Source: a virus
Strand: one strand, 5' to 3'
Virus record (IMG/VR): IMGVR_UViG_3300031839_000724
Coordinates: 1-40,729 of that record
DNA length: 40,729 nt
Shown: positions 16,497-36,450 of the stretch, piece by piece
Numbering within the stretch: position 1 is the first letter of the stretch
Layout: each line of letters starts with the position of its first letter
Notes under the pieces: model-generated
Databases searched by the model: none
Told to the model about the DNA's origin: nothing
Seen by the model: only the letters and a program-made list of their open reading frames with translations
Program-made: the position numbers and the translations under genes

Positions 16497-17162
16497 TTAA
16501 ACCCTCAGATAACTCATGCTAGGTTGCAGTTTTAAAGGAACCCGATCTTCATCCTCGTCTGAAGCTCTTTGGAACTCTTCTTCGTATATAGACTTTAACA
16601 TTTGCAACCTTTCAGGCGCACGTTTCATTGCTATATAGTAAGACAGTCCCGCAACCATACACGGATAGAACCTAAACGGCATATCTGTTGTATTAACCAG
16701 AGTATCAGCATCATCAATCCTGCGAACGTAATAGTACACCAATTGATCCGTTGAGTTCTCGGGAACAGGCCACAAGTTAATTACAGGCGTTATTTGCCGA
16801 TCAAAGTAAAACTGACTGGTACGACCCGTCGTTGTTTTGTTGGGCAACGTTAAGTATTCCGCCCGACTTATGCGATCAATCTCGTAGTCGGTATTGTCCC
16901 GACGAAGAACCACCTCAAGAACGTCCACAACATCTGCTAGCAACGTTTCTTGCGCCTGACCCTGTGTCAATGTCGTAGTTGCCTGCTTCACTGTCCAAAG
17001 GTTCAGGCCTCGATTAGCCCACTCAGCAAACATTAGGTTAAGAGATCGACGAGCAGTCTTGGCGTCGTATCCTGTACGAACCTCCAAGCCGCAACGCTCA
17101 AACGCTTCCTCAATCAGTTCCCCGACATCAAGCTCAAAATCTCTTGTACCCGATAATGCCAT
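16497..17162 (-). CDS. gp4-like head-to-tail adaptor protein (221 aa)
   Basis: The helical N-terminus (ELIEEAFERCGLEVRTGYDAKTARRSLNLMFAEWANRGLNLW) matches the P22 gp4-like tail accessory factor family, which forms the ring under the portal and closes the packaged head. A beta segment then carries VINLWPVPENSTDQLVYYYVRRI, and the protein ends in helices (AGLSYYIAMKRAPERLQMLKSIYEEEF). The length is near the family range. TAATG overlap with the upstream gene. Neighbouring genes are tail and joining proteins, as expected. Confidence 0.8.
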   Translation of the reverse strand: MALSGTRDFELDVGELIEEAFERCGLEVRTGYDAKTARRSLNLMFAEWANRGLNLWTVKQATTTLTQGQAQETLLADVVDVLEVVLRRDNTDYEIDRISRAEYLTLPNKTTTGRTSQFYFDRQITPVINLWPVPENSTDQLVYYYVRRIDDADTLVNTTDMPFRFYPCMVAGLSYYIAMKRAPERLQMLKSIYEEEFQRASDEDEDRVPLKLQPSMSYLRV

Positions 17163-17569
17163 TAGAACACTCGACCGCCATCACGCATCTTGCGCATTCC
17201 GCCACTGGTCATAGGAACATCACGCATTCCCATAGCCGAATTCATTTGATCAGCATTCATTCCATCCACTTGGGCACGAGGTTTAGAAACCATTTGTTTC
17301 ACAGCTTCAACACCTTGCCGGATTTCAGGCATGGCATTTTGAATAGATCCGCCACCCTGCATCTCAGGGACTTCGCCACCGCGCATCATCTTAACTTTGC
17401 CGCCACGCATCATGCCGGGAACTTTGCCGCCACGCATCATCTTAACTTTGCCGCCACGCATCATCTTAACTTTGCCGCCACGCATCATTTTTTTCTTCGC
17501 TGCGCTTTTCATTGGCTCAGTTGTGTTTCCGTCTTTATCCAAATCAAGAAAATCAGGTTTACCTGGCAT
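17162..17569 (-). CDS. MRGGKV tandem-repeat small protein (135 aa)
   Basis: Start chosen at the ATG at 17569, seven bases after an AGGAG site. The N-terminus PDFLDLDKDGNTTEPM contains an EF-hand-like D-x-D-x-D-G loop. Residues about 28-70 are five near-perfect copies of an 8-9-residue basic unit (KMMRGGKV). The protein ends in MTSGGMRKMRDGGRVF, another glycine-pair motif. No family with a known function is recognisable. It is strongly basic in the repeats and lies between a hypothetical protein and the gp4-like adaptor. The repeat unit is the same motif that occurs singly near the end of many other late proteins in this window. Confidence 0.78.
   Translation of the reverse strand: MPGKPDFLDLDKDGNTTEPMKSAAKKKMMRGGKVKMMRGGKVKMMRGGKVPGMMRGGKVKMMRGGEVPEMQGGGSIQNAMPEIRQGVEAVKQMVSKPRAQVDGMNADQMNSAMGMRDVPMTSGGMRKMRDGGRVF
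17370..17488 (-). repeat. Tandem 24-30-bp repeats encoding MMRGGKVK
   Basis: The plus strand shows repeated CATCTTAACTTTGCCGCCACG blocks, five in tandem with one interrupted by an inserted P-G codon pair. The near identity of codons implies recent duplication. Confidence 0.92.
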
Positions 17570-17570
17570 T

Positions 17571-18014
17571 TTATATACTCCTGTTTTTACGCGCCAAAAT
17601 GTGACGCTCATATTCATCGGGCTCGTAGTTCTTATAGTACCCTAGTTTTTCTAACTTTGCAGCAGCATTCTCTAATTCGCTCCACCGCTGCACAAAGACC
17701 ACCGCTTCAGTTTCTCGCAAAAACGATAAAAGCCAAATGTCTATGTCAGTCAATGTAAAGAAATTATTCAACGCCATGCAGCCATCTTCTAAGGATTGAT
17801 AGCTTTTGCTGTAGCCATAGTCAAAAAACATCGAAACCTTGTACCCTCGATTGCAAAATCTTGAGCACTCCTCCACAACATCCGTCCACAGTTCCTCAGT
17901 AACAACCGTTTTTACTTCTCCGTCGTTTAACGCCTGCAAAGCATACGGACAACGTGGAACGTCGTTGTTGAACCTAGAAGGCTTTGATAAATCTGTAGCC
18001 CACTCTCTTATCAA
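17571..18014 (-). CDS. Hypothetical protein, TTG start (147 aa)
   Basis: Probable TTG start overlapping the TGA of the upstream gene, with a GAGGG site five bases ahead; no ATG lies near. Sequence hallmarks are REWATDLSKPS, RCPYALQALN, and two aromatic-rich helices (LTDIDIWLLSFLRETEAVVFVQRW). Five cysteines are spread through residues 20-80. I do not recognise a characterised family; similar genes sit among small late genes in marine phages. Confidence 0.68.
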   Translation of the reverse strand: MIREWATDLSKPSRFNNDVPRCPYALQALNDGEVKTVVTEELWTDVVEECSRFCNRGYKVSMFFDYGYSKSYQSLEDGCMALNNFFTLTDIDIWLLSFLRETEAVVFVQRWSELENAAAKLEKLGYYKNYEPDEYERHILARKNRSI

Positions 18015-18238
18015 AACACCCTCGCTTGTCCGCCTGTACTAGCCTTCCACTTGATTCGTTTCGACGATTTCTTTTTCTTCATTGCAGATGTACATTCCGA
18101 CATAGTCGGACGACAAGCGGGGTATCCTTTACGCTTTTCGCCCTTTTGACGACCACACGGCTTACCCGTTTTGCAATCTACCCAACCTTTTCCATCGTTT
18201 TGAGAAAACCATTCCCGTAAAGAGTTTTTCTTTGCCAT
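18011..18238 (-). CDS. Small basic Cys-containing protein (75 aa)
   Basis: Start at the ATG at 18238, which shares its A with the TAA of the upstream gene and follows a perfect GAGGAG site. The core LREWFSQNDGKGWVDCKTG, then CGRQKGEKRKGYPACRP and C-x-S-A-M-KKKK, is lysine-rich with four cysteines. It resembles short domains of unknown function shared by phages and some large algal viruses. It ends KASTGGQARVF, the glycine-pair motif. A nucleic-acid or metal-binding role would fit the composition, but nothing is demonstrated. Confidence 0.75.
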   Translation of the reverse strand: MAKKNSLREWFSQNDGKGWVDCKTGKPCGRQKGEKRKGYPACRPTMSECTSAMKKKKSSKRIKWKASTGGQARVF

Positions 18239-18519
18239 TAGAAACTCCTCGTGCGTTTCCTGCGGTTTTCTTCCACCATTCCACAACCGGACGCAACCAT
18301 TCCACCAGGGGCATAACGCTGAACGGCTTTTCGCTTAGGGTTATCCACCGCCGTCATTAAGCCGCCCATCGCCGCTTTCTTAGTAGAGTTTCCCCAATTT
18401 GCGGCTCCCACCTTTCGGCACTTTGCTACCGCTCCGCTTGCGTAAGCCGAGGGCCAAACCTTGTACCGAGCCTTGACCTTTTTTGCGCAAGCGTCGAGCT
18501 TCTTTTTCTTTTTTGCCAT
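18238..18519 (-). CDS. Small basic KVWPSAYASG protein (93 aa)
   Basis: Start chosen at the ATG at 18519 (MAKKKKKLDACAKK) eight bases after AGAGGT; the longer frame adds 16 atypical residues. The core KKVKARYKVWPSAYASGAVA, then KCRKVGAANWG, is a signature I know from small phage proteins of unknown function. The C-terminus runs YAPGGMVASGCGMVEENRRKRT: glycine pair, then GCG, then a basic end. TAATG overlaps link it to both neighbours. Charge suggests DNA contact or packaging; inference only. Confidence 0.77.
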   Translation of the reverse strand: MAKKKKKLDACAKKVKARYKVWPSAYASGAVAKCRKVGAANWGNSTKKAAMGGLMTAVDNPKRKAVQRYAPGGMVASGCGMVEENRRKRTRSF

Positions 18520-18752
18520 TATTCCGTACCTCTGGTGGTGTGGATATTTGGAACGGCATTTGTCCACGACTTATCATAGTTTGCCTGCCTTACTAAAAAA
18601 TCTTGCCACATAGGCTTAATCATTTTGTAGTTTTCCTCGACCCGATAAGACACAACAGCCAGATCCGATTTCATCACATAAAGTTGAGTTGAGCCCCAGC
18701 CCAAGAGTCCAACCACGATAACCGATGTTATATCCGAAAAACTCAACTTCAT
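18519..18752 (-). CDS. Single-span membrane protein (77 aa)
   Basis: The ATG at 18752 lies four bases after the previous stop; the longer upstream frame overlaps the preceding gene and is unlikely. Residues 5-25 (FSDITSVIVVGLLGWGSTQLY) form one hydrophobic segment, followed by a charged helical C-terminus (SDLAVVSYRVEENYKMIKPMW). Small proteins with an N-terminal anchor and a coiled tail occur among phage spanins and holin partners. Its distance from the lysis genes near 25 kb makes that uncertain. Confidence 0.7.
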   Translation of the reverse strand: MKLSFSDITSVIVVGLLGWGSTQLYVMKSDLAVVSYRVEENYKMIKPMWQDFLVRQANYDKSWTNAVPNIHTTRGTE

Positions 18753-18756
18753 CACG

Positions 18757-19002
18757 TTACCACATCTTGCACGACCAATAACGGGCCGTAAGTTTGTCCA
18801 GCTTTTTTGTATCACAACCATGCCTAGCCCGAAACGATTTCCTGCGCTTCGGGTTTGATTTCTTAATGGTCATGTTGGCGTCCCCGAAACGAATAATCTT
18901 CTCGGTGCCTTTGTCACAAGCCTTTACAACAAACTTCTTCCCGCCAGAAACTTGACGTTTGGGCTTGTTGCACTTCATCTTAGCCTTGTCGATCTTAGCC
19001 AT
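18757..19002 (-). CDS. Small Lys/Cys-rich protein ending ARYWSCKMW (81 aa)
   Basis: Highly basic, with four cysteines. The C-terminal signature SFRARHGCDTKKLDKLTARYWSCKMW occurs in short viral and phage proteins without a known role. The C-x(n)-C layout could bind metal. Its start overlaps the end of the 134-aa gene by eight bases. With the two downstream basic proteins (18011-18519) it makes a cluster of three tiny Lys/Cys-rich genes. Confidence 0.77.
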   Translation of the reverse strand: MAKIDKAKMKCNKPKRQVSGGKKFVVKACDKGTEKIIRFGDANMTIKKSNPKRRKSFRARHGCDTKKLDKLTARYWSCKMW

Positions 19003-19399
19003 AGGTTTTACGAAGATATAAAATTACAGTATAAGTATCCGCAGAAGTGTGGCCCACTGTGGTAAAGTTAATGTCCCCAGTTTTGCCGCTTCCAGAATTG
19101 TTGGTTAAACCTCCAAAAACCGTATAGTTATGATCACCACTTTGATTTTCACCAAGCTCAATACAAAAAGCATCCGTAGTTGCATCCCACAGAATCTGCA
19201 CTTTCATGCCGATGCACTGCCACCAGATACGTTCAATGGCAACCCCTGTGCAGGGATTGCCATCAGTATCAGTTTCCAACGCGCTTACGTCAACTTTAGT
19301 AACAGCAGATTCACCCGTGCCATCAGACACGTTGGTGAACTTAAAGGCCGCTGTTTTTCGCCCATCATAAATTTTTTGGGTCGTTACGGCGTCAGCCAT
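18995..19399 (-). CDS. Probable head decoration/structural protein (134 aa)
   Basis: A beta-rich soluble protein with the ordered blocks KTAAFKFTNVSDGTGESAVTKVDVSAL, IERIWWQCIGMKVQILWDATT and SGKTGDINFTTVGHTSADTYTVILYLRKTYG. I recognise these from structural genes near the capsid gene of marine phages. A GAGGAG site precedes the ATG. Between two other capsid-proximal genes, it most likely coats or cements the head; the exact role is unknown. Confidence 0.75.
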   Translation of the reverse strand: MADAVTTQKIYDGRKTAAFKFTNVSDGTGESAVTKVDVSALETDTDGNPCTGVAIERIWWQCIGMKVQILWDATTDAFCIELGENQSGDHNYTVFGGLTNNSGSGKTGDINFTTVGHTSADTYTVILYLRKTYG

Positions 19400-19421
19400 G
19401 TTAGCTACTCCTCATGTTAGT

Positions 19422-20039
19422 TTAAGAAGCTACGTCATAGCCAGTGATTGTAATAACTAATCTACCCGCTGTATAAGTAGCATCGGTTGTTGCCCCAGCG
19501 GTTAAGTAAAGATACTGATCCGCCGCAATATCGCCACCAGCAACTAGACTACCCGCTGCTAAATCACCTGAGTTGATAATCAAAGTCTCAGTTAAATCAG
19601 AAATAGGAGTATCCTCCACACCTGTAGCTTCAGTAGCAGAATGCAGGTTAATATCTGGATCACCACCCGCTGGAGTCTCAAGGCACATCATAGTAACGCC
19701 GAACACCGTACCTTGGTTTGCCGTTGTAACGCGACCAATGTAAGCAACACCCGAACCGTCTTTACCAATGATGTCCCCAGCCGCAGTCGAGCGCAAACCA
19801 GTAAGGTCAATCAAAATAGTGGTTTTTACGATATTGACGTTTGTTGAAGTATCGCTTTTGAACCGCTCTACTTGTGTAACGTATACAGCCGCAGTTCCTT
19901 CGATGCCAGCACCGCCAGCAGCTTCAGTCGCCATTTTCGATCCGCTGGTAATCGTAATTTCACCAGTAGTCGCATTTTTAGATACAGTTTCAAAACCGTT
20001 TTCAGAACGCACTGGTCCTGAGAAAGTTGTATTAGCCAT
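19422..20039 (-). CDS. Probable head-associated structural protein (205 aa)
   Basis: Start at the ATG at 20039, six bases after AGGAG; the longer frame adds seven residues without support. MANTTFSGPVRSENGFETVSK is a frequent N-terminus of phage virion proteins encoded next to the capsid gene. The remainder is beta-rich with Thr/Ala/Gly (VYVTQVERFKSD, IGRVTTANQGTVFGVTMMCLE, LVITITGYDV). It is separated from the capsid gene by a 150-base spacer with strong hairpins, so it may have its own transcript level. A decoration or head-fibre role is likely, not certain. Confidence 0.77.
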   Translation of the reverse strand: MANTTFSGPVRSENGFETVSKNATTGEITITSGSKMATEAAGGAGIEGTAAVYVTQVERFKSDTSTNVNIVKTTILIDLTGLRSTAAGDIIGKDGSGVAYIGRVTTANQGTVFGVTMMCLETPAGGDPDINLHSATEATGVEDTPISDLTETLIINSGDLAAGSLVAGGDIAADQYLYLTAGATTDATYTAGRLVITITGYDVAS

Positions 20040-20064
20040 GAAGATCTCCTGTCTTGGCAAATGT

Positions 20065-20083
20065 CAGCCGCACCGTGCGGCTG
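20065..20083 (-). other. Perfect GC-rich hairpin upstream of the 205-aa gene
   Basis: CAGCCGCAC and GTGCGGCTG are exact inverted repeats separated by one base, realistically a 7-bp stem with a 5-base loop. No T-run follows on the minus strand, so it is not a standard terminator. It may stabilise the 5' end of the downstream message or be a processing site. Confidence 0.7.
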
Positions 20084-20116
20084 TCAGGGATAAAAAAACC
20101 ATACAGGAGAAATAGA

Positions 20117-20146
20117 CAAAAAGAAAGGGGCTACCGAAGTAGCCCC
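20117..20146 (-). terminator. Rho-independent terminator after the capsid gene
   Basis: On the minus strand GGGGCTAC, a TTCG loop and GTAGCCCC give a perfect 8-bp stem closed by a C(UUCG)G tetraloop, followed by TTTCTTTTTG. It lies about 50 bases after the major capsid stop. This is the clearest terminator inside the late block and would reduce transcription of the tail genes relative to the capsid gene. Confidence 0.88.
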
Positions 20147-20147
20147 C

Positions 20148-20182: not shown

Positions 20183-20192
20183 ATAGCACGTT

Positions 20193-21104: not shown

Positions 21105-21117
21105 TCGTTAGACCTCC

Positions 21118-21762: not shown

Positions 21763-21790
21763 AATAAGCTCCTATTTACAGCAATTAAAA

Positions 21791-22249: not shown

Positions 22250-22253
22250 AATA

Positions 22254-23162: not shown

Positions 23163-23651
23163 CTAAACCTGCTTAATGTCGTCGGGCTCTAAGATCGTAG
23201 CAATAACCTCATCGTCATTGATTATACGAACTTCGCCGCCGTCAATTTTAAATCGTGATCCCGAGTATCTACCGATACAGACCCACTGTCCCTCGGCGCA
23301 CCAAGGTGATGCATCAGGGCCAAACTTGTCTGGATCTTTATACGCTAAAGGACCAATCTTTAAGACATACGCAACAACTGTGGCAACAGCTTCACGGTCC
23401 CTAATCTCATCTGGGATGTGCAAACCGCCTTGAGTCTTAGTCGCACCCTGATAAGGCATAACCAACACACGCCAGCCTGTGGGCTGCGGAAGTCTTTCAA
23501 GCAAGGGTTTTTCTAAAAGAGAAGGATCTAAAACCTTCTCGGTGGTATCAACATATGCGCTACCAACAGCAGAAGACGCAGACGCTTTGTCTGTCTTCGT
23601 TTTGTTCATTTTCTGCGCGACATGTTCAGGAAGATATAAGGTCTTCGACAT
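23163..23651 (-). CDS. GroES-like co-chaperonin (162 aa)
   Basis: Residues 59-160 match the chaperonin-10 fold: PTGWRVLVMPYQ, a mobile loop TKTQGGLHIPDE, EAVATVVAYVLKIGP, CAEGQWVCIGRYSGSRFKIDG and INDDEVIATILEPDDI. In the loop, K-x-x-GG-L-H-I corresponds to the K-x-x-GG-I-V-L of E. coli GroES that docks on GroEL. The 58-residue N-terminal extension is absent from bacterial GroES (about 97 aa). Located before scaffold and capsid, it probably adapts host GroEL for coat folding, as T4 gp31 does. The ATG at 23651 overlaps the previous gene by 26 bases; a start at M15 is also possible. Confidence 0.85.
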   Translation of the reverse strand: MSKTLYLPEHVAQKMNKTKTDKASASSAVGSAYVDTTEKVLDPSLLEKPLLERLPQPTGWRVLVMPYQGATKTQGGLHIPDEIRDREAVATVVAYVLKIGPLAYKDPDKFGPDASPWCAEGQWVCIGRYSGSRFKIDGGEVRIINDDEVIATILEPDDIKQV

Positions 23652-23838
23652 CGTCAGCGTGGTTCTCCAGCAGGGCTTTGATTTCCTCACGAGCGTAGGA
23701 GATGCCCCGTATTTCCCCTACCATGAGTTTATAATGCTCCCAGTCTTTAGCAGCATCCATTCCCAGCGCACTTGCAATTTCTTGTTCGCGCTGATTAAGC
23801 AACTTATACATATATGTAGCAAAAGCAACAGCGTCCAT
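23626..23838 (-). CDS. Small helical hypothetical protein (70 aa)
   Basis: AFATYMYKLLNQREQEIASALGMDAAKDWEHYKLMVGEIRG and a second helix (YAREEIKALLENH) indicate a compact alpha-helical protein. It is frequent upstream of head genes in marine phages as an uncharacterised gene. The ATG overlaps the TAA of the Cys-rich gene. A regulatory or assembly cofactor role cannot be told from sequence. Confidence 0.72.
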   Translation of the reverse strand: MDAVAFATYMYKLLNQREQEIASALGMDAAKDWEHYKLMVGEIRGISYAREEIKALLENHADDVEDLISS

Positions 23839-24320
23839 TAAAGAATATCTCTGCTACTGTGTTCTGTGCTTGATGTAATAGGTCCACCGGATACCCACGC
23901 ATCACACACTCTATTCGACGCACATTTAAATTTTAAAAATTGACAATAGCCTAAATCACCCGCGTCTATACTGTCGTAAGGATCCGCAACATCGCTTTCA
24001 CCAATTCCTTTTGCGATACAATTGAGTATCTCCGGAGTTTGATTAAACGCGGCGCAATTTCCGCAACGACTTTCAATAGCCGCGTCCACACTTGTTTTGA
24101 ACGTCTTTGCTATCTTTTCCCAAAAATCGTTGTTTTCTCCAGTTTCATCCAACTCAGGATTCAATGGGCCATACTGATATTCGTCTATAGCTTCTTGCCG
24201 ATTTTCAATGTTCAACTTAATATCTTGGGTGGGGAGAGGGCATGAATCACCGCTCTCATCTGCCTCCATCTTGTCTACAGGCATTCCCTCCGGAAGAATT
24301 TTTATGACTATCGTGGTCAT
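23838..24320 (-). CDS. Cysteine-rich metal-site-like protein (160 aa)
   Basis: Seven cysteines at 27, 86, 89, 101, 126, 133 and 139: SRCGNCAAFNQTP, LNCIAKGIG, GYCQFLKFKC and NRVCDAWVSGGPI. The spacing and the terminal W-x-x-G-G resemble high-potential iron-sulfur proteins, but I cannot confirm cofactor type. The N-terminal half includes CPLPTQDIKLN, YQYGPLNPE and NDFWEKIAKTF, conserved in similar marine phage genes. ATGA overlap with the preceding gene. An Fe-S or zinc site in an assembly or virion protein is inferred. Confidence 0.75.
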   Translation of the reverse strand: MTTIVIKILPEGMPVDKMEADESGDSCPLPTQDIKLNIENRQEAIDEYQYGPLNPELDETGENNDFWEKIAKTFKTSVDAAIESRCGNCAAFNQTPEILNCIAKGIGESDVADPYDSIDAGDLGYCQFLKFKCASNRVCDAWVSGGPITSSTEHSSRDIL

Positions 24321-24577
24321 CAGTACGTCTCTCCGTCACCAAAGCCACTTGTCTGAGCCGCGCCGCATCCGCGAGCTCTACCACCGCTAAAAAACTTCTT
24401 GGGCTTCTTATCCAACATTTCTTCGAATATCTCAGGGTTTTTGCGAAGAAGTTTCTCCACCTCTTGCGCTACCGCAGTCTGTCCTCCCGCGTTGCGGCTC
24501 TTCGAACCGCCCATCGCTTCGTCTCCTGTGGCACCCTTTAAAAACCGTTTTAGTTGTTCTTCTGTAAAACTCGCCAT
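24320..24577 (-). CDS. Small protein with C-terminal glycine-pair tail (85 aa)
   Basis: A helical N-terminal half (EEQLKRFLKGATGDEAMGG, AVAQEVEKLLRKNPEIFEEML) is followed by KKFFSGGRARGCGAAQTSGFGDGETY. The tail has the same order (aromatic, GG, basic residue, GCG) as the tail of the 93-aa protein at 18238. It is coupled to the Cys-rich protein by an ATGA overlap. Function unknown. Confidence 0.72.
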   Translation of the reverse strand: MASFTEEQLKRFLKGATGDEAMGGSKSRNAGGQTAVAQEVEKLLRKNPEIFEEMLDKKPKKFFSGGRARGCGAAQTSGFGDGETY

Positions 24578-25063: not shown

Positions 25064-25064
25064 A

Positions 25065-26394: not shown

Positions 26395-26567
26395 ACACGT
26401 TCACCCACCTTGGCTACAGGAGGACACCGATAATCATACGGTATCCGTACAATCCGCGGGTAATGATAGTAAAAATAAGAAACGTCTCTAGGACAGCGGT
26501 ACACACACGCCTTGTACATGTCGCCGCCATGCATCCCCACCAACACTGCGGTGAGAGCGCACAACAC
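26391..26567 (-). CDS. Hidden 58-codon gene, small exported-type protein
   Basis: This gene is too short for a usual length cut-off. The GTG start at 26567 shares its G with the TAG stop of the previous gene, six bases after GGAGAG. The TGA stop overlaps the ATG of the next gene. The frame fills the gap exactly. The product starts with a hydrophobic segment (LCALTAVLVG), then MYKACVYRCPRDVSYFYYHYP and IPYDYRCPPVAKVGERV: tyrosine-rich with four cysteines. It looks like a small secreted or membrane-tethered protein in the lysis cluster; I see no clear lipobox. The coding call rests on fit, ribosome site and protein-like composition. Confidence 0.75.
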   Translation of the reverse strand: MLCALTAVLVGMHGGDMYKACVYRCPRDVSYFYYHYPRIVRIPYDYRCPPVAKVGERV

Positions 26568-26764
26568 TAGAACTCTCCAACAAACCTCTGAGGTCGGGCT
26601 ATCGGACTAAACCGCCTGTTCACCATACCGCCAGAAGAATATTTACTTTTACCCGCTTTGCTTAACGCAATAGCAACCGCTTGATCTTGCGGTTTCCCAG
26701 CAGCCATTTCTGTCTTGATGTTCTGGCTGATAACACCTTTAGATTTGCCTTCTTTTAGAGGCAT
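26567..26764 (-). CDS. Small basic protein, [12 protein letters not shown] type (65 aa)
   Basis: [41 protein letters not shown] is a recurrent signature of very short phage proteins of unknown function. The C-terminus [24 protein letters not shown] carries the glycine-pair motif. It begins at the portal gene's stop (the ATG at 26764 overlaps TAA). Basic and helical; possibly a DNA- or portal-associated factor, but that is a guess. Confidence 0.77.
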
Positions 26765-29250
26765 TACTGAGTCCTCCGTATCATCGCCTCTCGTTGGACG
26801 TTAATACGATCACGGTTAACCTCGTTACGATCATCCGCAATCTGCTCTTGTAACTCTAACCGAGCAGAATCAGCAGTGGCCTGTTGAGCCATCTTCGCCT
26901 GCTCTAGCTGCAACTTCATCTGATCCAACTGCGCGTCACTCGCTACTTGTTGCTGTTTAATCGCCAACTCTTGCTGACGGATCTGAACAAGAGGATCAGG
27001 CATCGGAGGCATCGGAGGCTGAATCATCATCATAACTTGCTGCATCAACTGAGTTTCCATTTGAGCTATTTGAGCCTCTATCTGCTCAGGAGGAGGAGCC
27101 ATTTGCTGAATCTGCATTATTTGCTGCTGCGCCATCTGAGGAGAAATAGCTCCCGTTTGAACCGCCAACTCTAGTTGCTGCATCTGCTCCTGCATCTGCT
27201 GCTCAACCTGCGACTGCACCATTTGTCTGGCCTGCATACCCACATGCTCAAATATATGCCCCACAAGTGTAGCCGATACCTGCGGGTTGCCTTGAGCAAT
27301 AGGCATCTGCAAAAACGTAACGTGAACCTGAATATGAGCCTCATGATTCTGATCAGGGAAAGATTGCGGCAACTGACCGCCAAGCAACTGAGCATTCTCC
27401 AACACAGGATCCGTAGGTTGAGGCTCCGGTGGCGGAGGTAAAATCTCATCAATGTTCTGGATTTCCAGAGCCTGATACATTCTACGATACGCCTGATAAA
27501 TGTTGTGAATCTCAGGATTAGCCTGCGCTAACTGCAATTGAGACTGCGCTAACGATACACGTTGCGCCATCGAGAAAATGTTTGGATCCGATACAGGTAT
27601 AACATCTACCCTGTCGTCAAAGTCCTCCGCTTTAATCTGACGAGACGCACCCGAAACATCATACGGATACTCCGGAGGCAAGTTCTCCGAAAAAATACGC
27701 GCCAACAAACGAAACTCCGTTTTCTGCGCATAATGCAGCCGCTTGTGAATCGCGGACATAACCTTCGTTCCACGCTCCATAAGAGCCATGGTAGTGCCAA
27801 CAGGCATCTCCTGACTGCCCTGCTCAGACAACTGATCCGCAGTCGAAATAAACCTGCGACCCTGATCCTGTATCGCTCCCAGCAACTGACCCAGCGTTGC
27901 AGAAGGCTCTTTGTACGGCAGCGGTATAATCGCTTCCCGTATGCTGCCTCCTGGCGCATCAATGTCCCGCCATTCCCCAGGCTGCAACGGCTCGTCGTCA
28001 TTACGAACCCGCACCCCTCGCGCCTTGAATCCTGCTGGGAGATTGGCAAGTGTACCAGCATCGATCAACTGTCGAAGGATACTCGTTGCCGCACGACCAA
28101 GGCCCCCGATCATGTGAATCAAACCAAAGCCGTAAAAGCCCAGACCCGGCATAAACTTGTAATGCACAAAATACTGACGCTTGCGACTCGTCGGATCGTC
28201 TTCAGCATAATTGCGGCGTATCGAAAGAACCTCTCCCGAGTCGTGATCTATAGTCACAACATACGGAAGCTTCAAACCCGTAGGCTCTCCAGTCTCCGAA
28301 ACGTCCTCAAAACCCTCTAAATCCAAATCAACGTGCATCTCCAAAACAGTATGCACATCATCGCTGTAATTCTTGGATATACCCTCTAACTCATTCACCT
28401 TCTGGCGAACCGGATCTTCCTCAAGATCCTCAGAACCTTTTAACTCAACATCACGGTAAAAACCCATAAGCTGCAACTTACGAATCTCGTTCTCATCCAT
28501 ACGCAACACATGCGTAACACGAGTAGCCGTCGCCAAATCAGACGCAGAATACGGAACAACCAAATCTTGCGCAGGTACAAACTTAGATACCGCCCGCTGC
28601 TTAGTCTCGTCGTAATAAACCTTCTTAAACGTCGAACCGCTCAAGGGTAAATAAAACAACATCTGATCAGTGTCCGGATCAAACTCCTCCATCACCTCAG
28701 TGATCTGGTAGTTCATAAAGTCCTTAACACGAGCCGCCTGCTCATCAGTGCCCAAATCCCGTAAACCAACAACCTTGGTCTTTACAGGGCCACCAGAGGG
28801 CAACATCTCCTTATACGCTTGAGCCTGAAACTGCGTAACACTCTCCGCAATCATCGGATTGGTTATCCCACTAGCCCCCTCAAACGGTACAGTGCGCTCC
28901 TCGTATTTAAGACCCAATAAGTCCAAACCCTTGGTATACGCCTCTTCCCACTCAGATCGAGAATCTAAATCCTCGTCGTATAATCCCCGCAAATCCGTGG
29001 ATAATTCACCAAGTTCGGAATCCGACAACGCCTCCGCTAAATTCATCGTGTGGTCATACATCGGCTCTGGGCCCAACATTTCCGGAGCCAAACCAAGAGC
29101 CTGCACAACAGCGCCACCCACACCATCGTCCATAATCTCTGCCCCGTTAGGAAACTCCATAGGAACATCAATCGGAATCTCTAAATCAGGAAGTCCCGCC
29201 GTATCATCGAGGTCCAACCCCGGTGCAACCATGCTTGGTGGTAATGCCAT
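26764..29250 (-). CDS. Portal protein (828 aa)
   Basis: Follows the large terminase directly. The core from about residue 90 ([21 protein letters not shown]), then [88 protein letters not shown] and [14 protein letters not shown], is the portal pattern of P22-like short-tailed phages. The Gln/Met-rich helical C-terminus (about 640-820) would form an extended barrel like that of the P22 portal. The acidic N-terminus (1-60) is disordered. The portal forms the dodecameric DNA entry ring. The ATG overlaps the terminase TGA. Confidence 0.9.
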
Positions 29251-30716
29251 CAGTAATACTCCCTTTTACGGGGCCTCCATTCAAGTTCGTCTTCTTCTTC
29301 GCCCTTCAAAGAAACAAAGCCTCCTTGTCGGAATCGCATCAGTGCTAACGTCATACTATCACAAAAGTCATCATGATCACCATTAGGAAATGAAACTACT
29401 TCCTCAATCACCTCATCCGTAAACTTTTTGTCCTCAGGTGCCCATACCATACCAGCTTCAAATAATGGCGCAACCATGTGCATCCTAGTTACCTTATCAC
29501 TCCCTTTACCCGGCGAAAAGCCCAAGGCCGGAATACCGCGAAGCCGCAACTCGTCAATAAGTGGCATTCCCGTCGCTTTCGCTTCGACCAACACCATGTC
29601 TGGCTCCCAGTATTCGTGTTCTTCATACGCAATCTCCTTGAGCTCTGGAAAATTCCAACGCCCACGACGAGCGTCCAATAATACAATGTTGTCCGAACCA
29701 CCCTCTTCCGGAGTAAATATCCCCCAGGTCGTAATCGCACTGTAATCCGCAGTCTGCTTCTTCGAAAACGCCGTGTCATACGACTGAATTATATACTGAA
29801 CCGGAGGAATCTCCTCCTTCTCCCACATCTGCCACCATTCCCGCTTAATAATCGCGGACTCAGATGTGGTAGGCTGCTGCTGCCACTGCGCATTCCACTT
29901 GCCAACAGGCAAAGACGCCTTAATCGATAATAACGCGTCCTTTTCCCAAAATTCAGGCCATAAAGGATTATCACTAGGCATAATCGCAGGAAATTCCACA
30001 ACTTCCCACTGATCCGACATCACATCACTGCCCTGCGCAGCAAGCAATCGACCAGTCAAATCCTTCTTACCCCACCGGGTCATAACCAAAATAATCGCAC
30101 CACCCGGCTGTAACCGCTGCCGAGGACCAGATGTGTACCACTCATACGCGTTGTCAAACGCACTATCGCTTAACGCATCCTGTTCCGAATGAGGGTCGTC
30201 AATAATAAGTAAATCCGCACCACGGCCCGTAATGGCCGCGCCAACACCCGCTGCAAAATACTCCGCACCCTTGTCAGTGCCCCACTTACCAGCCCCCTTG
30301 TTGTCCTCTTTGAGATTAGTCTCCGGAAAAATCGATTTATACTCTGGATCATCAATTAAATCCCTTACCTTCCTACCAAAACGTACCGCCAACTCAGTAT
30401 TGTGCGTAGCCTGAATGATTTTTAATTTCGGATTTCTACCTAGAAACCAAGCAGGCATCAAGTAACTTGCAAACTCAGACTTCGAATGTCGAGGGGGCAT
30501 GTTAATTATAAGCCGCTTGAGCTCCCCTCGTGCAACACGTTCAAGCTTTTCCGCAATAATCCGGTGATGACGACCCTCGATAAAGTTGTCATACACATGA
30601 TGAACAAACGGCATGAACTTTTCTTGCGCCTGCTCGCGCAAATCAAGCGTCTTCTTAGCCTCGGTTAAGGCTAAAATCTCCTTTAAAGCCTCTTCCGGTA
30701 AGGCCTGTAAACTCAT
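29250..30716 (-). CDS. terL: Terminase large subunit (488 aa)
   Basis: ATPase: Walker A NMPPRHSKS (residues 72-80), Walker B LLIIDDP (169-175) and coupling motif VMTR (211-214). Nuclease: SYDTAF (D313), LVEAKATG (E378) and NGDHDDFCDS (D447-D450), the RNase H-like acidic cluster. The enzyme cuts concatemers and pumps DNA through the portal encoded next. The length is usual. The C-terminus FRQGGFVSLK, then RKREYY, contains the glycine-pair motif and the KREY tail whose codons form the portal gene's ribosome site. The small subunit is about 9 kb away on the same strand. Confidence 0.95.
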   Translation of the reverse strand: MSLQALPEEALKEILALTEAKKTLDLREQAQEKFMPFVHHVYDNFIEGRHHRIIAEKLERVARGELKRLIINMPPRHSKSEFASYLMPAWFLGRNPKLKIIQATHNTELAVRFGRKVRDLIDDPEYKSIFPETNLKEDNKGAGKWGTDKGAEYFAAGVGAAITGRGADLLIIDDPHSEQDALSDSAFDNAYEWYTSGPRQRLQPGGAIILVMTRWGKKDLTGRLLAAQGSDVMSDQWEVVEFPAIMPSDNPLWPEFWEKDALLSIKASLPVGKWNAQWQQQPTTSESAIIKREWWQMWEKEEIPPVQYIIQSYDTAFSKKQTADYSAITTWGIFTPEEGGSDNIVLLDARRGRWNFPELKEIAYEEHEYWEPDMVLVEAKATGMPLIDELRLRGIPALGFSPGKGSDKVTRMHMVAPLFEAGMVWAPEDKKFTDEVIEEVVSFPNGDHDDFCDSMTLALMRFRQGGFVSLKGEEEDELEWRPRKREYY

Positions 30717-32092
30717 TTATACCGAAAGAAATCTGAATAAGCAGGTAAACTGCCCACGCCAACCTGTCCGCCCGCCGCAAACTGTCCAGATCTGCGCATA
30801 AAACTAATGTCCTCAGAACCCGGTTGCAAAAATCCTCCGCCACCCACCGGAGGAGTGTAATCTATATACTCAGAAAGCGGGGGTGGAGGTGGTGGAGGGG
30901 GAGGTGGTGCAGGGATCTTAGGTTTTTCAGGCGTAGCAACCGGATCAATTACACAAACCTGCGACTCTGGATCCATAATATATCCATTCGGACACGGGTC
31001 CGCTGGTGGAGCAACAAACCTTGAATCGTCATCGTCATCGCGGGATCCACTAGCAGCGGCTTTTCGATTCCTCTCCATCGTATCTTTGGTCCGCTGAACA
31101 TAAGAAGCTGCGTCCTTACGGCTATAGCCCGCGTCCACAAGCTTCTGCTCCATTTCATCAAAACCTACACCAAAAGTTTGATAACCCATGCCTATATCAG
31201 CACCGATATTCGACGCCAGACCAAGTCCCGCACCTATTATTCCCATGCCGCCCAACATGCCCGACTTACCAGCACCGCCGCCATCCATCATGTCCCGTAA
31301 CCGCTCGGCATAACTAATATTACCGTCATTGTTGTAATCGAAACCATACTCATAGGCGGGTTTAGTAGGCCTCTTAGGGGGTCTAATACCGCCAGGAGTA
31401 GTATCAGTGTCAGTGCCAGTGTCAGTGCCACCAGTGCCACCAGTGTCAGTGCCGCCAGTGTCAGTAACAGGGGGAATATCAGGCCTCTTAGGGGGTCTAA
31501 TACCGCCAGGAGTAGTATCAGTATCAGTAACAGGGGGAATATCAGGCTTCGTAGGGGGTCTAGTACCGCCACCGCCAGTGCCAGGGGGAGGAGTGGGCGG
31601 GCCATAACCGCCGCTATCAGGCGGCGCTGAAGGATCAAAACCCGGACCGTCATCGTTTCCACCGCTAGAAGGAGGAGTGGCCGGACCGTCGTCGTTTCCA
31701 CCGCTAGAAGGAGGAGTGGCCGGGCCATAACCGCCACTATCAGGCGGCGCTGAAGGATCAAAACCCGGACCGTCATCGTCGTCGTCGTCGTCGTCGTCGT
31801 TAGAACCGCTGCCGCTGCCGATACCAGTCCCCTCACCGCTGCCATAACCGCTGTCGCCGGGAGGAAATGCAGGAATACCCATCGGGCCCTCAATGCCCAT
31901 ACCACCCTGCTCCATCAACAACGTCGCCTCATCAGGAGTTATATACGAAAGCATGTGAGGCTGACCCATAATGTCAGTCAGATGTGGAGGCTGCTCAATC
32001 GCAGAAGGCCGAACATCCGGAATAAACGGAGGAGAACCACGATCAATATTAAACTGTCGTACCTTGCCGTCCTTGCCTACAATTACCGCCAT
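30713..32092 (-). CDS. Low-complexity Gly/Pro/Asp protein with EF-hand loop (459 aa)
   Basis: Short folded N-terminus (1-75), then a long disordered region (about 80-245) of Gly, Pro, Asp and Thr, including nine aspartates in a row and duplicated GFDPSAPPDSGGYGP units. Residues 252-263 (DYNNDGNISYAE) are a complete EF-hand calcium loop with ligands at positions 1, 3, 5, 9 and 12, followed by a glycine-rich hydrophobic stretch. Near residue 385 is CPNGYIMDPESQVCV, a two-cysteine motif common in marine phage proteins, then ten consecutive prolines and FAAGGQV. Overlaps terL by four bases. Possibly an extended virion or host-contact protein; no known family. Confidence 0.75.
   Translation of the reverse strand: MAVIVGKDGKVRQFNIDRGSPPFIPDVRPSAIEQPPHLTDIMGQPHMLSYITPDEATLLMEQGGMGIEGPMGIPAFPPGDSGYGSGEGTGIGSGSGSNDDDDDDDDDGPGFDPSAPPDSGGYGPATPPSSGGNDDGPATPPSSGGNDDGPGFDPSAPPDSGGYGPPTPPPGTGGGGTRPPTKPDIPPVTDTDTTPGGIRPPKRPDIPPVTDTGGTDTGGTGGTDTGTDTDTTPGGIRPPKRPTKPAYEYGFDYNNDGNISYAERLRDMMDGGGAGKSGMLGGMGIIGAGLGLASNIGADIGMGYQTFGVGFDEMEQKLVDAGYSRKDAASYVQRTKDTMERNRKAAASGSRDDDDDSRFVAPPADPCPNGYIMDPESQVCVIDPVATPEKPKIPAPPPPPPPPPPLSEYIDYTPPVGGGGFLQPGSEDISFMRRSGQFAAGGQVGVGSLPAYSDFFRYK
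31368..31800 (-). repeat. Nested direct repeats and a GTC/GAC microsatellite
   Basis: Blocks near 31600-31655 and 31723-31778 are nearly identical. A 39-bp unit is tandemly repeated around 31653-31730, and a GGCCTCTTAGGGGG block recurs near 31368 and 31483. Positions 31771-31800 are a trinucleotide run that encodes the polyaspartate tract. Such DNA is prone to slippage, so repeat counts could also be affected by assembly. Confidence 0.85.
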
Positions 32093-32520
32093 TAATAAAA
32101 TCCCATCATCTGTGGCATCGATCCGCCATACCCACCATACGGCATAATACCCATTCCATAACCAGGCATCATACCACCAAGCTGCTGCGGAGGCTGCATC
32201 TGATCCTGAACCGCGTCCTCTAAACTTCCAACCCGTGACTCAATAGGCGCAGACGAATCAAACATCCCACCACTCGAAACCATAGGACTATCAAACAATC
32301 CACCAAACTGACTAGGATCACTCTTGTAATCCTGAACAAAACGCTGACGATCTTCCTTGTCCATGCCCAAACTCTTGGCAAACTCCTTCGGATCAAACGG
32401 ATTCCTCGAAGGCTGCTGATAACCACCATACCCAAAAAATCCACCAAGACCACCACCATACGAATTAGACCCACCGTAATAGCTACCACCACCGCCTTGA
32501 TACACCGCAGGACTTCTCAT
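32092..32520 (-). CDS. Gly/Tyr/Met-rich small protein (142 aa)
   Basis: The N-terminus is glycine/tyrosine-rich (GGGGSYYGGSNSYGGGLGG). A short ordered helix lies in the middle (PKEFAKSLGMDKEDRQRFVQDY), and the C-terminus is Gly/Met/Tyr-rich (MMPGYGMGIMPYGGYGG). There are no catalytic motifs. GAGGGG precedes the ATG, and TAATG couples it to the next gene. Such sticky low-complexity proteins occur around phage virion genes; function unknown. Confidence 0.7.
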   Translation of the reverse strand: MRSPAVYQGGGGSYYGGSNSYGGGLGGFFGYGGYQQPSRNPFDPKEFAKSLGMDKEDRQRFVQDYKSDPSQFGGLFDSPMVSSGGMFDSSAPIESRVGSLEDAVQDQMQPPQQLGGMMPGYGMGIMPYGGYGGSMPQMMGFY

Positions 32521-32555
32521 AACTATCTTCCCCTCACAACAAAGATAAACGCATT

Positions 32556-33125
32556 CTAACTAAAATCATACAATGAAGCAACGCCCAGATTCTCAACCGC
32601 TCGGCCCAAGGTCCGAGGCCTGATAAACGGACGAGCAGGAATCAATTCAGGATCCGAAACAACCGGAATCTCAAAATCAACCGGACGAGCACGAGGACGA
32701 ACCTCCGCAACCTCAAACTCCCCGTCAGACCGAGGACCACGAGTCGGTCCCAATATGTAATCAACATACGAAACCGTCTCACGAGGCAAACCACCACCCT
32801 GATCCACACGACCAGGACCAGCGTTGTACGCAGCTAAAGCCTTCTCGTAATTCCCATCATACTTACCCAACATCGCAGATAAATAATCAGCGCCAAATCG
32901 TAAACTCTCAACAGGATCCAAACGATCCCTAATAGGACGAACCTCGTACCCAGGATCACGGGCCGTGTCTGGCATAATCTGAGCTATCCCCAATGCACCC
33001 TTCTCACTACGAGCCGTCGAATCAAAACCACTCTCCCGAGAAATCAAACGAACATATATATCAGGATCAATACCACGAGACTCCGCCATCGATCTCGCCA
33101 ACTTCTCCAAATACTCCCGCTCCAT
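32556..33125 (-). CDS. Soluble lytic transglycosylase, SLT domain (189 aa)
   Basis: Catalytic glutamate in LISRESGF (E31), then GALGIAQIMP (43-52) and AYNAGPGRV (99-107): the three motifs of family 1 lytic transglycosylases, which cleave glycan strands. There is no signal peptide, so it probably travels in the virion to open the wall during DNA entry, or aids lysis. The ATG at 33125 shares an A with the upstream TGA. A GGGAG ribosome site sits in the preceding KREYL codons, and the protein itself begins MEREYLEK, repeating the same DNA. Confidence 0.9.
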   Translation of the reverse strand: MEREYLEKLARSMAESRGIDPDIYVRLISRESGFDSTARSEKGALGIAQIMPDTARDPGYEVRPIRDRLDPVESLRFGADYLSAMLGKYDGNYEKALAAYNAGPGRVDQGGGLPRETVSYVDYILGPTRGPRSDGEFEVAEVRPRARPVDFEIPVVSDPELIPARPFIRPRTLGRAVENLGVASLYDFS

Positions 33126-33148
33126 CACAAATACTCCCGCTTTAAAGA
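33108..33148 (-). repeat. CGGGAGTATTTG repeat at the HExxH/SLT junction
   Basis: The 14-mer CAAATACTCCCGCT (plus strand) occurs at 33108-33121 and 33128-33141. The 28 bases 33121-33148 are identical to 34104-34131. The segment codes for the KREYL tail of one gene, contains the ribosome site and start of the next, and codes for EREYL of that next gene. Confidence 0.92.
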
Positions 33149-34108
33149 CACAAGTCCCCCAGTTGAAAACTTCTTAGTAGGAAACATCTTCCTATCAAAA
33201 TCCATAGGATTTATAAAATCCCTGCTAATCGCAGAGCCAAGTTTTTTCCCCTCCGCAGACAAGCGCGTAACTTCCGCTTTCGCATCCTCCGGATCCATAT
33301 CCCGAAACGAAGAATAACCCGTGCCAAACAAATCCTTATATGCCCGCAATAACTGCTCCGAATCATCCTGTTCAGGACGAACCTTCCCAGTAACCGGACG
33401 AGGACTAGGCAACCTCTTCAATATAGGATCTAATTCCTTCATTAAAGAAACTATCCCCCTAACATCCGATACCCGCTCTAAATCAGGCAGCATCTTCCCA
33501 TAACGACCCGTCTCCCCATATGTGAACTCCGTAGGCTCAGGACGCTGCTGAGACTTCATCGCCTCAGTACGAAGATACTCACTAACTCGATCCACAGTCG
33601 GTAACGCAGCTAACTCCTCCTCCGTTATATCCCCGCGCAACGCCGCCAATACCCCCTCGCGTAACTCAGGACTCTGTAAATCCGAACTCTTCGTCTTCTC
33701 AGTAATTACCCCAAAAATTCCCGCTTTAGAAAAAGGGTCCGTGGGTCGCGCATACTCATCCAAAAAAGGAGGATCAAACAACTCAACAAACTTTTCTTCC
33801 TGAGCAGCAGAAATCTGGCCTCTGTTCTGAAAAGGACCACCCGCCTCATCCAAAAGAGCACCAACCTTGTCATACGCATCACGACCAAAACGATAAATAA
33901 ATTCCGCAGGATTGTCGTTGTATAACTGACGTAACTCCATAATTCCTAAATGACGATACTCATGAGCCTCAACCCCAGGACCATATGGACTTGAACGAAG
34001 ATCCTCGGGCATCGCTATTATGCCCGTCCTCTGAATTACCTGCGGCTCCATGCGTCCATACCTAACCGCGTCACCAGCCCTGCGACCGTACTCCGTTATT
34101 GGATCCAT
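33125..34108 (-). CDS. HExxH-containing putative metalloprotease (327 aa)
   Basis: GVEAHEYRHLGIMELRQLY contains H49-E50-x-x-H53, the zincin active-site pattern, inside a helix as expected; a third zinc ligand cannot be assigned. The rest is helical with LREGVLAALRGDITEEELAALP and GRYGKMLPDL. The C-terminus KKFSTGGLVSLKREYL combines the glycine-pair motif and the KREYL tail. It lies between a polyvalent-type protein and the SLT enzyme, with TGATG overlaps at both ends. A virion-borne protease is plausible; not proven. Confidence 0.72.
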   Translation of the reverse strand: MDPITEYGRRAGDAVRYGRMEPQVIQRTGIIAMPEDLRSSPYGPGVEAHEYRHLGIMELRQLYNDNPAEFIYRFGRDAYDKVGALLDEAGGPFQNRGQISAAQEEKFVELFDPPFLDEYARPTDPFSKAGIFGVITEKTKSSDLQSPELREGVLAALRGDITEEELAALPTVDRVSEYLRTEAMKSQQRPEPTEFTYGETGRYGKMLPDLERVSDVRGIVSLMKELDPILKRLPSPRPVTGKVRPEQDDSEQLLRAYKDLFGTGYSSFRDMDPEDAKAEVTRLSAEGKKLGSAISRDFINPMDFDRKMFPTKKFSTGGLVSLKREYL

Positions 34109-34131
34109 CACAAATACTCCCGCTTTAAAGA
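34104..34131 (-). repeat. 28-bp direct repeat, second copy (gene junction)
   Basis: Identical to 33121-33148. It covers the SLKREYL codons, TGA stop, ribosome site and ATG of the HExxH gene. A shortened relative spans the terminase-portal junction at 29250-29266. Confidence 0.92.
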
Positions 34132-36450
34132 TCCAAGGCCCGTGAACCGAGGATCACGAACCATACCCCCATTACGAAACGCAGAAATCCCCGTCTCCCG
34201 TAAGGCACGAAGAAAGTTTTCAGTAATCTCGAACCCCGGAACCTCGTGGTAAAAATAGTCGTCATCGTACCTGTCCCGACCAGCAATGGTTACATTGCCC
34301 AACTTCGGCATCTCTAAACCACTGTCCTTCTCTAACTTCGCTAAAATATTCTTAACACGACTCGGAACAATCTTATCATAATATTCCCGCTGACCAGACA
34401 AATCACCCATCGTCATATCATAAGCCATGTCCCCAGTGCCCAACGTGAAAAACTCCAAACCCTCGTTACTCGGTAAAGCAATCTGATCAAAAGCACTCTT
34501 AATCGCCATGTCCGTAACACGATTCGTCTTAAATAACTTCCCTAAACCAACATCCTCCGGAACCTGATACCCCGACTTATACTGAAGATCCGATAAAATA
34601 CTCGCAGCACGACGCTTCTTGAAACTAGGATTCAAACCATCAAACACTTTTGATAGTTCTTTCCGCGATGCAGCATCAATATCTGGAAAAACACTTAGTA
34701 CACCGTCTTGCTCAAAATACTTCTTCTTAACATCCGGTGATAACTGATCAAAAAACTCCAGCAATACATCACCACGAGCATCACCAACCGACTCCACACT
34801 GTTTAACGTCTCCAACATACCCGTCGGTAATGAATCCAAAACATTCCGAGCCTGTACCGCAGATCGAGAACGCTGCGTAATGTCCGACTGAATCTCCCCC
34901 AAATGAAACGATGAAGTACCCTCCAACCCACCATCCTTAGCCACAGGAAACACAGCAGAACGATAATGTACAACAGGAACCCCGCTCACCGAACCAAAAT
35001 GCTCGTCAGCACCCGGCAAACCCCGCGCACCATCATCAAAATTCTGGTTTAACGTTAATACCGTCTCCTGATAATCACTCCCGCCCGGAGTGAAATACTG
35101 AGGATAAGCAACCCGATCCCCCTTTAAAACATTCACAGCAACCGGATCTTCAACTAACTGATCAAAAACCTCATCCAAACTAACCCCGTCAGGAAAACGA
35201 TTGCGAAGATCCTTCGTCGCTAAACCACGAGCTTCCAACTCCGCGGGCTTTACACCACGGTTCTCCAACGTCTTCACAAACTGATCAACAGAACCAAACT
35301 TCTGTTTCGGAAAATTAGGCAAAACAGGGTCTAAACTATCCCGCAATACCGAATCCTCAAACAAACCAAACCGAAAACCCGTCCGATCAAAAGGATTTGT
35401 GTCACTAACATTTGCAAAAGGATCCAACGCACCACCCGGAGCAGTAGGCGGCGTATTGTTCTCCCGAGTAACACTCACCACAAAACCATAGTCCGGATTA
35501 AAATAATCATTAATAATCTCAGCTGAAACACCAGCATCTTCCGCTATCCGACGAGCCACCCTAACCCGGTCCTCAATGTCAATCGTCATTTCACCAAAAC
35601 GAGCGTCAGCCATACTCATGTCCGGAGAAAACGCCGAAAGTAAATCGTCCTCAAACTCACTAGCACCCATAATGTTGGGCAAACCATCCGTCCGCAACTG
35701 ACGCAATAACGGCTGTAATATATCCATGTCCACAAATCGAGTGCCCGTATCAACATCAGTCGCCGTCACCGGATCAATTCGAGTAGTAACGGCTAGCTCA
35801 ACCTGATTCTCGTCCGGTAAAAACTCTTCAGGACGTAAAACAACCTCCATAGTGGCCTCGTCAGGTCCAATAAACGGATCCATGCCAAACGAATCATCAA
35901 TAGGAGGTTCAAGATAATCTATCAACGCCATCTCTTCAGTTTGATCGGAACGATCAAATTCACGATTTAAATAATCGTAATAATCGTTTTCAATCTCATC
36001 AGGCATTTGATAGTCAGCTTCAGGAAATTCAAAAGGTGCAAGGGCCTCATCAACATCAACAGAAACATCAATCCGAGGCTCCTGCAAAGCCTGCTCCTGC
36101 AAAGCCAATAACTCATCTTCCGAATTAGCACGAGCCAACGCCTCCAACTGAGCCTCCGCATCAGGGCCCGGACTCAAACCAAACATCTCCATTAAAGCTG
36201 CCTTGGCTGGCTGCTTTAAAACTCGACCAGCACCCAAAGTTAAAGCAGGGATTAACGTCTCTAATCCAGCCTCGATCCGATCTTCTGGCTTCTCGCCCGC
36301 CGTGCCAATGCGCCCAGCCGCCTCCATACCACGACGAAGACCCGTCGTCGGAACCAAATTAGAAACGTCATCCGCTCCAACCGACTGAAACAACGGACGA
36401 AGGCCCGGGGGAATATATTGCGTGATCGGTAAAGAAAATCTATCGGCCAT
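34108..36450 (-). CDS. Polyvalent-type phage protein with EIQSD motif (780 aa)
   Basis: First gene of the late block. Start at the ATG at 36450, six bases after GAGAG; a TTG 12 bases earlier is less likely. Residues about 1-120 are helical, and about 125-260 very acidic. Around residues 480-545 YQETVLTLNQNF, HFGSVSGVPVVHYRSAVF and SFHLGEIQSDITQ follow. Near residue 695 comes GQREYYDKIVPSRVKNILAKL. I associate this order with domains of large phage polyvalent proteins thought to be injected with DNA; their biochemistry is unknown. It ends FRNGGMVRDPRFTGLGSLKREYL. Confidence 0.75.
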   Translation of the reverse strand: MADRFSLPITQYIPPGLRPLFQSVGADDVSNLVPTTGLRRGMEAAGRIGTAGEKPEDRIEAGLETLIPALTLGAGRVLKQPAKAALMEMFGLSPGPDAEAQLEALARANSEDELLALQEQALQEPRIDVSVDVDEALAPFEFPEADYQMPDEIENDYYDYLNREFDRSDQTEEMALIDYLEPPIDDSFGMDPFIGPDEATMEVVLRPEEFLPDENQVELAVTTRIDPVTATDVDTGTRFVDMDILQPLLRQLRTDGLPNIMGASEFEDDLLSAFSPDMSMADARFGEMTIDIEDRVRVARRIAEDAGVSAEIINDYFNPDYGFVVSVTRENNTPPTAPGGALDPFANVSDTNPFDRTGFRFGLFEDSVLRDSLDPVLPNFPKQKFGSVDQFVKTLENRGVKPAELEARGLATKDLRNRFPDGVSLDEVFDQLVEDPVAVNVLKGDRVAYPQYFTPGGSDYQETVLTLNQNFDDGARGLPGADEHFGSVSGVPVVHYRSAVFPVAKDGGLEGTSSFHLGEIQSDITQRSRSAVQARNVLDSLPTGMLETLNSVESVGDARGDVLLEFFDQLSPDVKKKYFEQDGVLSVFPDIDAASRKELSKVFDGLNPSFKKRRAASILSDLQYKSGYQVPEDVGLGKLFKTNRVTDMAIKSAFDQIALPSNEGLEFFTLGTGDMAYDMTMGDLSGQREYYDKIVPSRVKNILAKLEKDSGLEMPKLGNVTIAGRDRYDDDYFYHEVPGFEITENFLRALRETGISAFRNGGMVRDPRFTGLGSLKREYL

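Follow-up and report, generated by a model that had tools for sequence, protein, structure and literature searches.

Why do so many late proteins of one viral genome, whose bodies show no detectable sequence similarity to one another, end in nearly the same glycine pair? The question is raised by IMG/VR record IMGVR_UViG_3300031839_000724, of which positions 1 to 40,729 were analysed as one stretch of 40,729 bases, referred to here as the window. Its minus strand forms the late block, and the early genes lie on the plus strand at both ends. A first-pass annotation had noticed a motif of the form aromatic-x-x-G-G-x-(V/A) near the C-terminus of eight late proteins. We find that a recurrent tag built on a GGx[VIA] core almost certainly exists. 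We propose, with a probability of roughly 0.4, that it may act as a modular terminal docking tag for one assembly partner, likely a component of the head or procapsid, and so bring the tagged proteins onto or into the particle.

The terminase of the window is 54-61% identical to those of the group around Pelagibacter phages HTVC027P and HTVC023P and phage DSL-LC04. Judged by this identity, the window would belong to a tailed phage of the broad HTVC027P/HTVC023P/DSL-LC04 group, an aquatic bacterial virus. A near-identical, longer record (G021; 53,947 bases) was also available.

A six-frame search of the window for [FYW]xxGGx[VA] returned seven minus-strand matches located 7-20 residues before a stop codon and an eighth, internal one, and it recovered every match listed in the first-pass annotation apart from ASTGGQA. 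The positions stated there proved correct throughout. One of the seven, in the large terminase, is treated separately below. The remaining occurrences, together with two variants, are listed here; the quoted protein ends are directly followed by the stop.

34108-34179, minus strand: FRNGGMV, C-terminal tag FRNGGMVRDPRFTGLGSLKREYL of a 780-residue late protein (34108-36450), 16 residues before the stop
33125-33169, minus strand: FSTGGLV, C-terminal tag FSTGGLVSLKREYL of a 327-residue late protein (33125-34108), 7 residues before the stop
30713-30781, minus strand: FAAGGQV, C-terminal tag FAAGGQVGVGSLPAYSDFFRYK of a 459-residue Pro/Gly-rich protein (30713-32092), 15 residues before the stop
26567-26641, minus strand: YSSGGMV, 24-residue C-terminal tag on the 40-residue PHROG_2423 body of a 65-residue protein (26567-26764), 17 residues before the stop
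24320-24394, minus strand: FFSGGRA, C-terminal tag FFSGGRARGCGAAQTSGFGDGETY of an 85-residue protein (24320-24577), 17 residues before the stop
18238-18315, minus strand: YAPGGMV, C-terminal tag YAPGGMVASGCGMVEENRRKRTRSF of a 93-residue protein (18238-18519) whose body resembles cyanophage gp114, 18 residues before the stop
18011-18043, minus strand: ASTGGQARVF, tag variant ending a 91-residue cysteine-rich basic body (18011-18286)
17162-17617, minus strand: tandem MMRGGKV units of a 151-residue protein, which ends MRDGGRVF
6811-6942, minus strand: AAMGGIM and FANGGGV in the N-terminal block of a 634-residue protein, FANGGGV (at 6831) being residue 38

The original list of eight proteins was largely accurate. 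Its ASTGGQA entry lacks the aromatic residue of the pattern under which it was filed, and its terminase entry is probably coincidental. Orthologues of the 91-residue protein end, for example, KANGGLVRVF or KASGGLVRIF, and ASTGGQA can thus be read as a GGx[VA] variant of the tag. The list had also overlooked the 151-residue protein, which is a multivalent version of the tag; its relatives end RAGGQVKGFGFRGVF or YMNGGCVMAGRGVRDTNMS, and similar GYKxGGKM arrays occur among them.

The glycine pairs of the seven C-terminal matches are encoded by GGG GGT, GGG GGA, GGC GGA, GGA GGC, GGC GGT, GGT GGT and GGT GGA. Since these codons differ between genes of the window, the likeness is one of protein sequence rather than DNA sequence. 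A stretch of 28 nucleotides (TCTTTAAAGCGGGAGTATTTGTGATGGA) forms an exception: it ends both the 780- and the 327-residue genes identically (34108-34135 and 33125-33152), so that the SLKREYL shared by the two proteins is explained by a local DNA duplication. The same 28 nucleotides cover the ribosome site and start of the next gene, and the gene after the one at 33125 repeats GAGCGGGAGTATTTGGAG just inside its start.

For comparison, we made automatic gene calls for 19 related records and three published phages and grouped the products by BLAST into 552 families; the relatives are not independent of one another. The motif lay within 30 residues of the C-terminus of any member in 24 of the 323 late families and in 3 of the 229 early ones (Fisher p=5e-4), late and early being assigned by strand, which is approximate. 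We then drew a random member from each cluster and compared its 37 C-terminal residues with shuffles of those residues, excluding the near-identical record and also the window, which was not counted as evidence because the motif had first been noticed there. The late clusters gave 16.1 matches in 318, against 1.6 in the shuffles, and the early clusters 2.0 in 227. Random interior stretches were not raised (1.35 matches in 156), and N-terminal stretches also were (6.0 vs 1.3). When C-terminal glycine pairs were chosen without reference to the motif, Y was enriched 4.1-fold and F 2.6-fold at position -3, and V 3.6-fold at the second residue after the pair. Six further long genomes, which were found only through the tag scan, carried C-terminal tags in 9 of their 268 late genes and in none of their 208 early ones, the terminase being excluded. 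The first-pass annotation had asked whether the motif is equally frequent in early proteins or shuffled sequences; it is not.

The tag is also conserved, again as that annotation had expected. The terminal GG is kept by 33 of 36 orthologues of the 65-residue protein, 30 of 35 of the 93-residue protein and 8 of 9 of the 780-residue protein. In the last family, AFRxGGxV (A757 to V764) is invariant in 5 homologues, down to 33% overall identity, and the tail of the 65-residue protein is conserved in 28 of its 36 relatives. In the 65-, 91- and 93-residue families the residues beyond the GG are conserved to the end. The glycine pair is spelled by 4-14 codon pairs per family, and its constancy in the face of free synonymous variation indicates selection on the protein. 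The 459-residue protein is less regular: its homologue in L003 ends YAGGGQVGLGSMNPFMGMYKFR, and others have the GG in a different context or not at all. In an AlphaFold model of the 780-residue protein, the tag lies beyond the last structural element, with a predicted local distance difference test (pLDDT) score below 30 in what is a low-confidence model; at a mean pLDDT of about 41, neither this model nor that of the terminase was good enough for a fold search.

The tag comes and goes like a separate module: a given body may lack it, carry it with another ending or bear it at the N-terminus. The PHROG_2423 body of the 65-residue protein is matched by 110 published phage records over residues 1-34 only, and those homologues that were read end soon past residue 34, without a tag. 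Orthologues of the 91-residue body end SSKRVNWKGKKS where the tag is missing and SSKRISWKANGGLVRVF where it is present, while the 93-residue body is tagless in L118, L163 and L215 and has a different end in G024. The two mostly go together: both proteins are tagged in 24 genomes, neither in 11, only the 93-residue one in 8 and only the 91-residue one in 0, counts that do not represent independent events because the two genes are adjacent and the records related. The 85-residue body keeps FF.GGRA and continues with either RGCGAAQTSGFGDGETY or GDVRDNSKRGKTF; in L192 and L030 it ends FFLGGRAGDVRDNSKRGKTF. At the N-terminus, the tag is found on the 93-residue body in G041 (CYYKKGGTVK) and on a 91-residue-like body in G037 (MRTYYKSGGKI). 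Of the 634-residue protein (5038-6942), some 53 N-terminal residues (the MGGIMRSSPELMGEAMRFANGGGV block) are kept on proteins of 634-910 residues that have otherwise largely diverged. The first-pass annotation had placed FANGGGV at the start of this protein, where indeed it lies.

Particular tails also recur on different bodies. GCGxVxExRRKxTR is found on a second body at five loci, and GDVRDNPxRGK[TC]Y on three bodies. An IMG/VR scan for [FY]xxGGxVRGCG, without any condition on position or protein, gave, among the matches listed, 80 readable tails on at least 37 BLAST body clusters, with 78 of the 80 lying within 25 residues of the C-terminus; a few of the open reading frames concerned are probably spurious. 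Tails such as RGCG..., GDVRDNPxRGK[TC]Y and GCGxVxExRRKxTR have the length expected of homologous modules handed from one body to another, unrelated one, which suggests that the tails share descent and the bodies do not. The earlier contrast between a shared signal and descent was therefore too strict: a protein-level signal is indeed shared by non-homologous late proteins, and its longer tails look homologous.

Beyond the core, the tails are basic (+0.118 per residue vs 0.029), and F or Y is the final residue in 9 of 20 tagged families compared with 17 of 308 untagged ones (p=3e-6), one of the 20 (GroES) being a false positive of the looser pattern used here. The tag is thus often bipartite, its GGx[VIA] core being followed by a basic tail with an aromatic end. 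Counted by cluster, a final F, Y, L or W occurs in 10.6 of 20 tagged and 43 of 308 untagged families. Translational coupling, in which the Shine-Dalgarno sequence of the next gene would dictate ends such as KREYL, GKTY or GEF, was considered as a source and rejected, as untagged coupled genes lack aromatic ends: F, Y, L or W is final in 84% of tagged coupled, 59% of tagged uncoupled and 13% of untagged coupled genes.

Recurrence, late bias, conservation at the protein level, modularity and terminal position are thus direct observations. Late expression, terminal exposure, mobility, indifference to which end of the protein is used, and conserved side chains beyond the GG are together consistent with a docking peptide for a common partner. 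In the mechanism we propose from the sequences, the tag would consist of the GGx[VIA] core, in most cases preceded by F, Y or K at position -3, and of a basic stretch of 7-25 residues whose last residue is often F or Y. While particles are being assembled, the exposed tag would be bound by a single partner, most probably a component of the head or procapsid. Small basic proteins and large proteins of the ejection type would thereby be collected on or inside the particle, a function that would resemble that of the capsid-targeting sequence of T4 internal proteins. We infer that the partner is single and that it belongs to the head, and the passage from docking tag to virion loading would be a further such step. 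The tagged genes have terminase, portal, capsid and adaptor genes as neighbours, both in the window and in published genomes.

The basic tails admit a different explanation, in which the tag is an RGG-like nucleic-acid contact that condenses or coats DNA during packaging and a single protein partner becomes unnecessary. The tandem MMRGGKV array of the 151-residue protein and the many small, lysine-rich tagged bodies would suit such a role as well. We nevertheless consider it unlikely, since non-specific charge needs neither the conserved V at the second position after the GG, nor the terminal F or Y, nor a near-fixed distance to the C-terminus, and the tagged bodies are no more basic than untagged small late proteins.

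It is likewise unlikely, in our estimate, that the tag docks on a host or phage factor outside the virion (for example a chaperone, a membrane site or the portal/terminase machine) and organises assembly without being a packaging signal. Late bias and modularity would suit any shared partner, and in many of these phages the late block includes a GroES gene close to those of the capsid. The two look-alikes that bear on this possibility are the following.

23163-23690, minus strand: phage GroES (Cpn10), with the mobile loop KTQGGLHIP, which differs from the tag
29313-29333, minus strand: FRQGGFV of the large terminase (29250-30716), 20 residues before the stop, judged to lie outside the tag family

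The loops of about 30 phage GroES proteins read KTxGG[IL]x[IVL]P, whereas the tags read GGx[VIA] and allow D, E, K, R or Q at +1. Mimicry of the GroEL-binding loop is therefore disfavoured: the tags have no K-T before the GG and do not show the hydrophobic residues at +1 and +3. As for the terminase, its tail is probably no true tag. FRQGGFV stands directly behind the final helix of the nuclease domain, at a place where other terminases have FRAGNF, FLRRGDY or LRKGWFV, with no GG, and where a solved T7-like terminase aligns YLREGMLV, albeit weakly. The terminase tail beyond FRQGGFV is acidic, unlike the basic tails of the tags. Most probably, then, FRQGGFV is simply how this nuclease domain ends. 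Another glycine pair was set apart as well: in most relatives the 160-residue cysteine-containing protein (23838-24320) has a conserved C-terminus of the form WVxGGPIT......RDIL, and we treat this GGPI motif as a separate, family-specific feature.

That the tails were merely spread by recombination between neighbouring late genes and serve no common function is quite improbable. The identical 28-nucleotide ends of two adjacent genes would fit such exchange, and the long tail classes look homologous across bodies, but GG codons that differ within the genome and vary synonymously within families, a GGxV kept by orthologues at 33% overall identity and endings that change while the GG core stays speak against it. 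Least probable is cleavage by a protease, either at the GG or beyond it, of the type known from double-glycine leaders and ubiquitin-like proteins, protease processing being among the options of the first-pass annotation: a double glycine near the terminus is a classic site of such proteases, but here the residues after the GG are as conserved as those before it, up to the last one, and tags are also found at N-termini and in tandem arrays.

Other features of the window were noticed alongside the tag. One of them adjoins two of the tagged genes.

18757-19002, minus strand: DUF5754-like protein, untagged, which together with the two genes that follow makes up the split counterpart of a protein that is fused in cyanophages

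Each of the bodies encoded at 18757-19002, 18238-18519 and 18011-18286 has its counterpart in a different segment of one gp114/T4-GC119 protein. In T4-like cyanophages the gene of this protein sits between the terminase subunit genes; the segments are fused there and split in the window. The cyanophage fusion has no glycine tag, whereas two of the three separate proteins of the window lineage are tagged.

The tagged block at 30713-36450 includes a lytic transglycosylase gene (32556-33128). The adjoining 327-residue protein (33125-34108) contains EAHEYRH, an HExxH-like metalloprotease signature. For the 780-residue protein and its relatives, Pfam searches at relaxed E-value gave no confident family, and the protein had zero matches among 50,697 phage records. 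It may be a polyvalent ejected protein (PMC5512222), to which only its late position and a PcfJ domain in a DSL-LC04 protein beside the terminase point. Searches of the phages collection by tblastn with short tail peptides gave no matches. Elsewhere, the 253-residue protein (14017-14778) contains many (L)AATGGVGS(A/V)xVT repeats, and the 1579-residue protein (293-5032) opens with a duplicated unit of about 30 residues, ELKSAAIAAYDAGDDxTGNxLADQA.

Several points, in addition to the approximate assignment of late and early genes, weigh against a docking tag for a head component. No proteomic study of the virions of these phages came to light. Related phages do not all have the tag, which is absent from the C-termini of Pam1, HTVC203P and CRP-901. 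Since the tail classes do not all end alike, the tags may have two or more partners. Finally, gp114/T4-GC119 is labelled 'structural protein' in one record and 'hypothetical protein' in PMC3037559.

Few of the small late genes of aquatic phages have a known role, and a movable tag links dozens of their families. If the tag is a docking peptide, the tagged families are predicted to meet at one partner. It is also conceivable, though we think this broader view less likely than not, that environmental phages share a C-terminal sorting code (the glycine pair with its basic tail and frequent aromatic end), handed as a module from gene to unrelated gene, that directs many small proteins without known function into the virion and perhaps, at infection, into the host. 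A scan for the tag would in that case predict hidden virion cargo of uncultured phages. A search of open-access text found no description of the tag.

Among known systems, the closest in principle is the capsid-targeting sequence of phage T4, which is N-terminal and removed by the prohead protease. It is the sole conserved part of diverse internal proteins and loads them into the precursor scaffolding core (PMC3012670). The likeness lies in the same short signal being placed on otherwise unrelated proteins, as is the case here. The tag differs in being mostly C-terminal (78 of 80 among the matches listed), in having another sequence, in being conserved on both sides of the GG and in showing no sign of cleavage. 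Encapsulin cargo-loading peptides are also short, C-terminal and found on unrelated proteins, and they bind to the inside of a shell with the HK97 fold. The window tails GLGSLKREYL and VSLKREYL are superficially similar to them, but the encapsulin peptide has no GGx[VIA] core and most tails have no GSL-like element: by eye, it is present in the tails at 34108 and 30713 and in none of the 24320, 26567, 18238 and 18011 families.

Tape-measure proteins carry FAxGGxV or GG repeats inside one long protein. The short motif is similar, and it is also found within large proteins of the related records; the tag described here is terminal and occurs on many small proteins. In the mobile loop of GroES (GGIVLTG), and in GroEL-binding patches modelled on it, the GG is followed by hydrophobic residues (PMC3521247), whereas the tags are variable and often charged at +1, have V, I or A at +2 and are often aromatic at -3. 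If the proposed reading is correct, the tag would be a C-terminal counterpart to the T4 capsid-targeting sequence.

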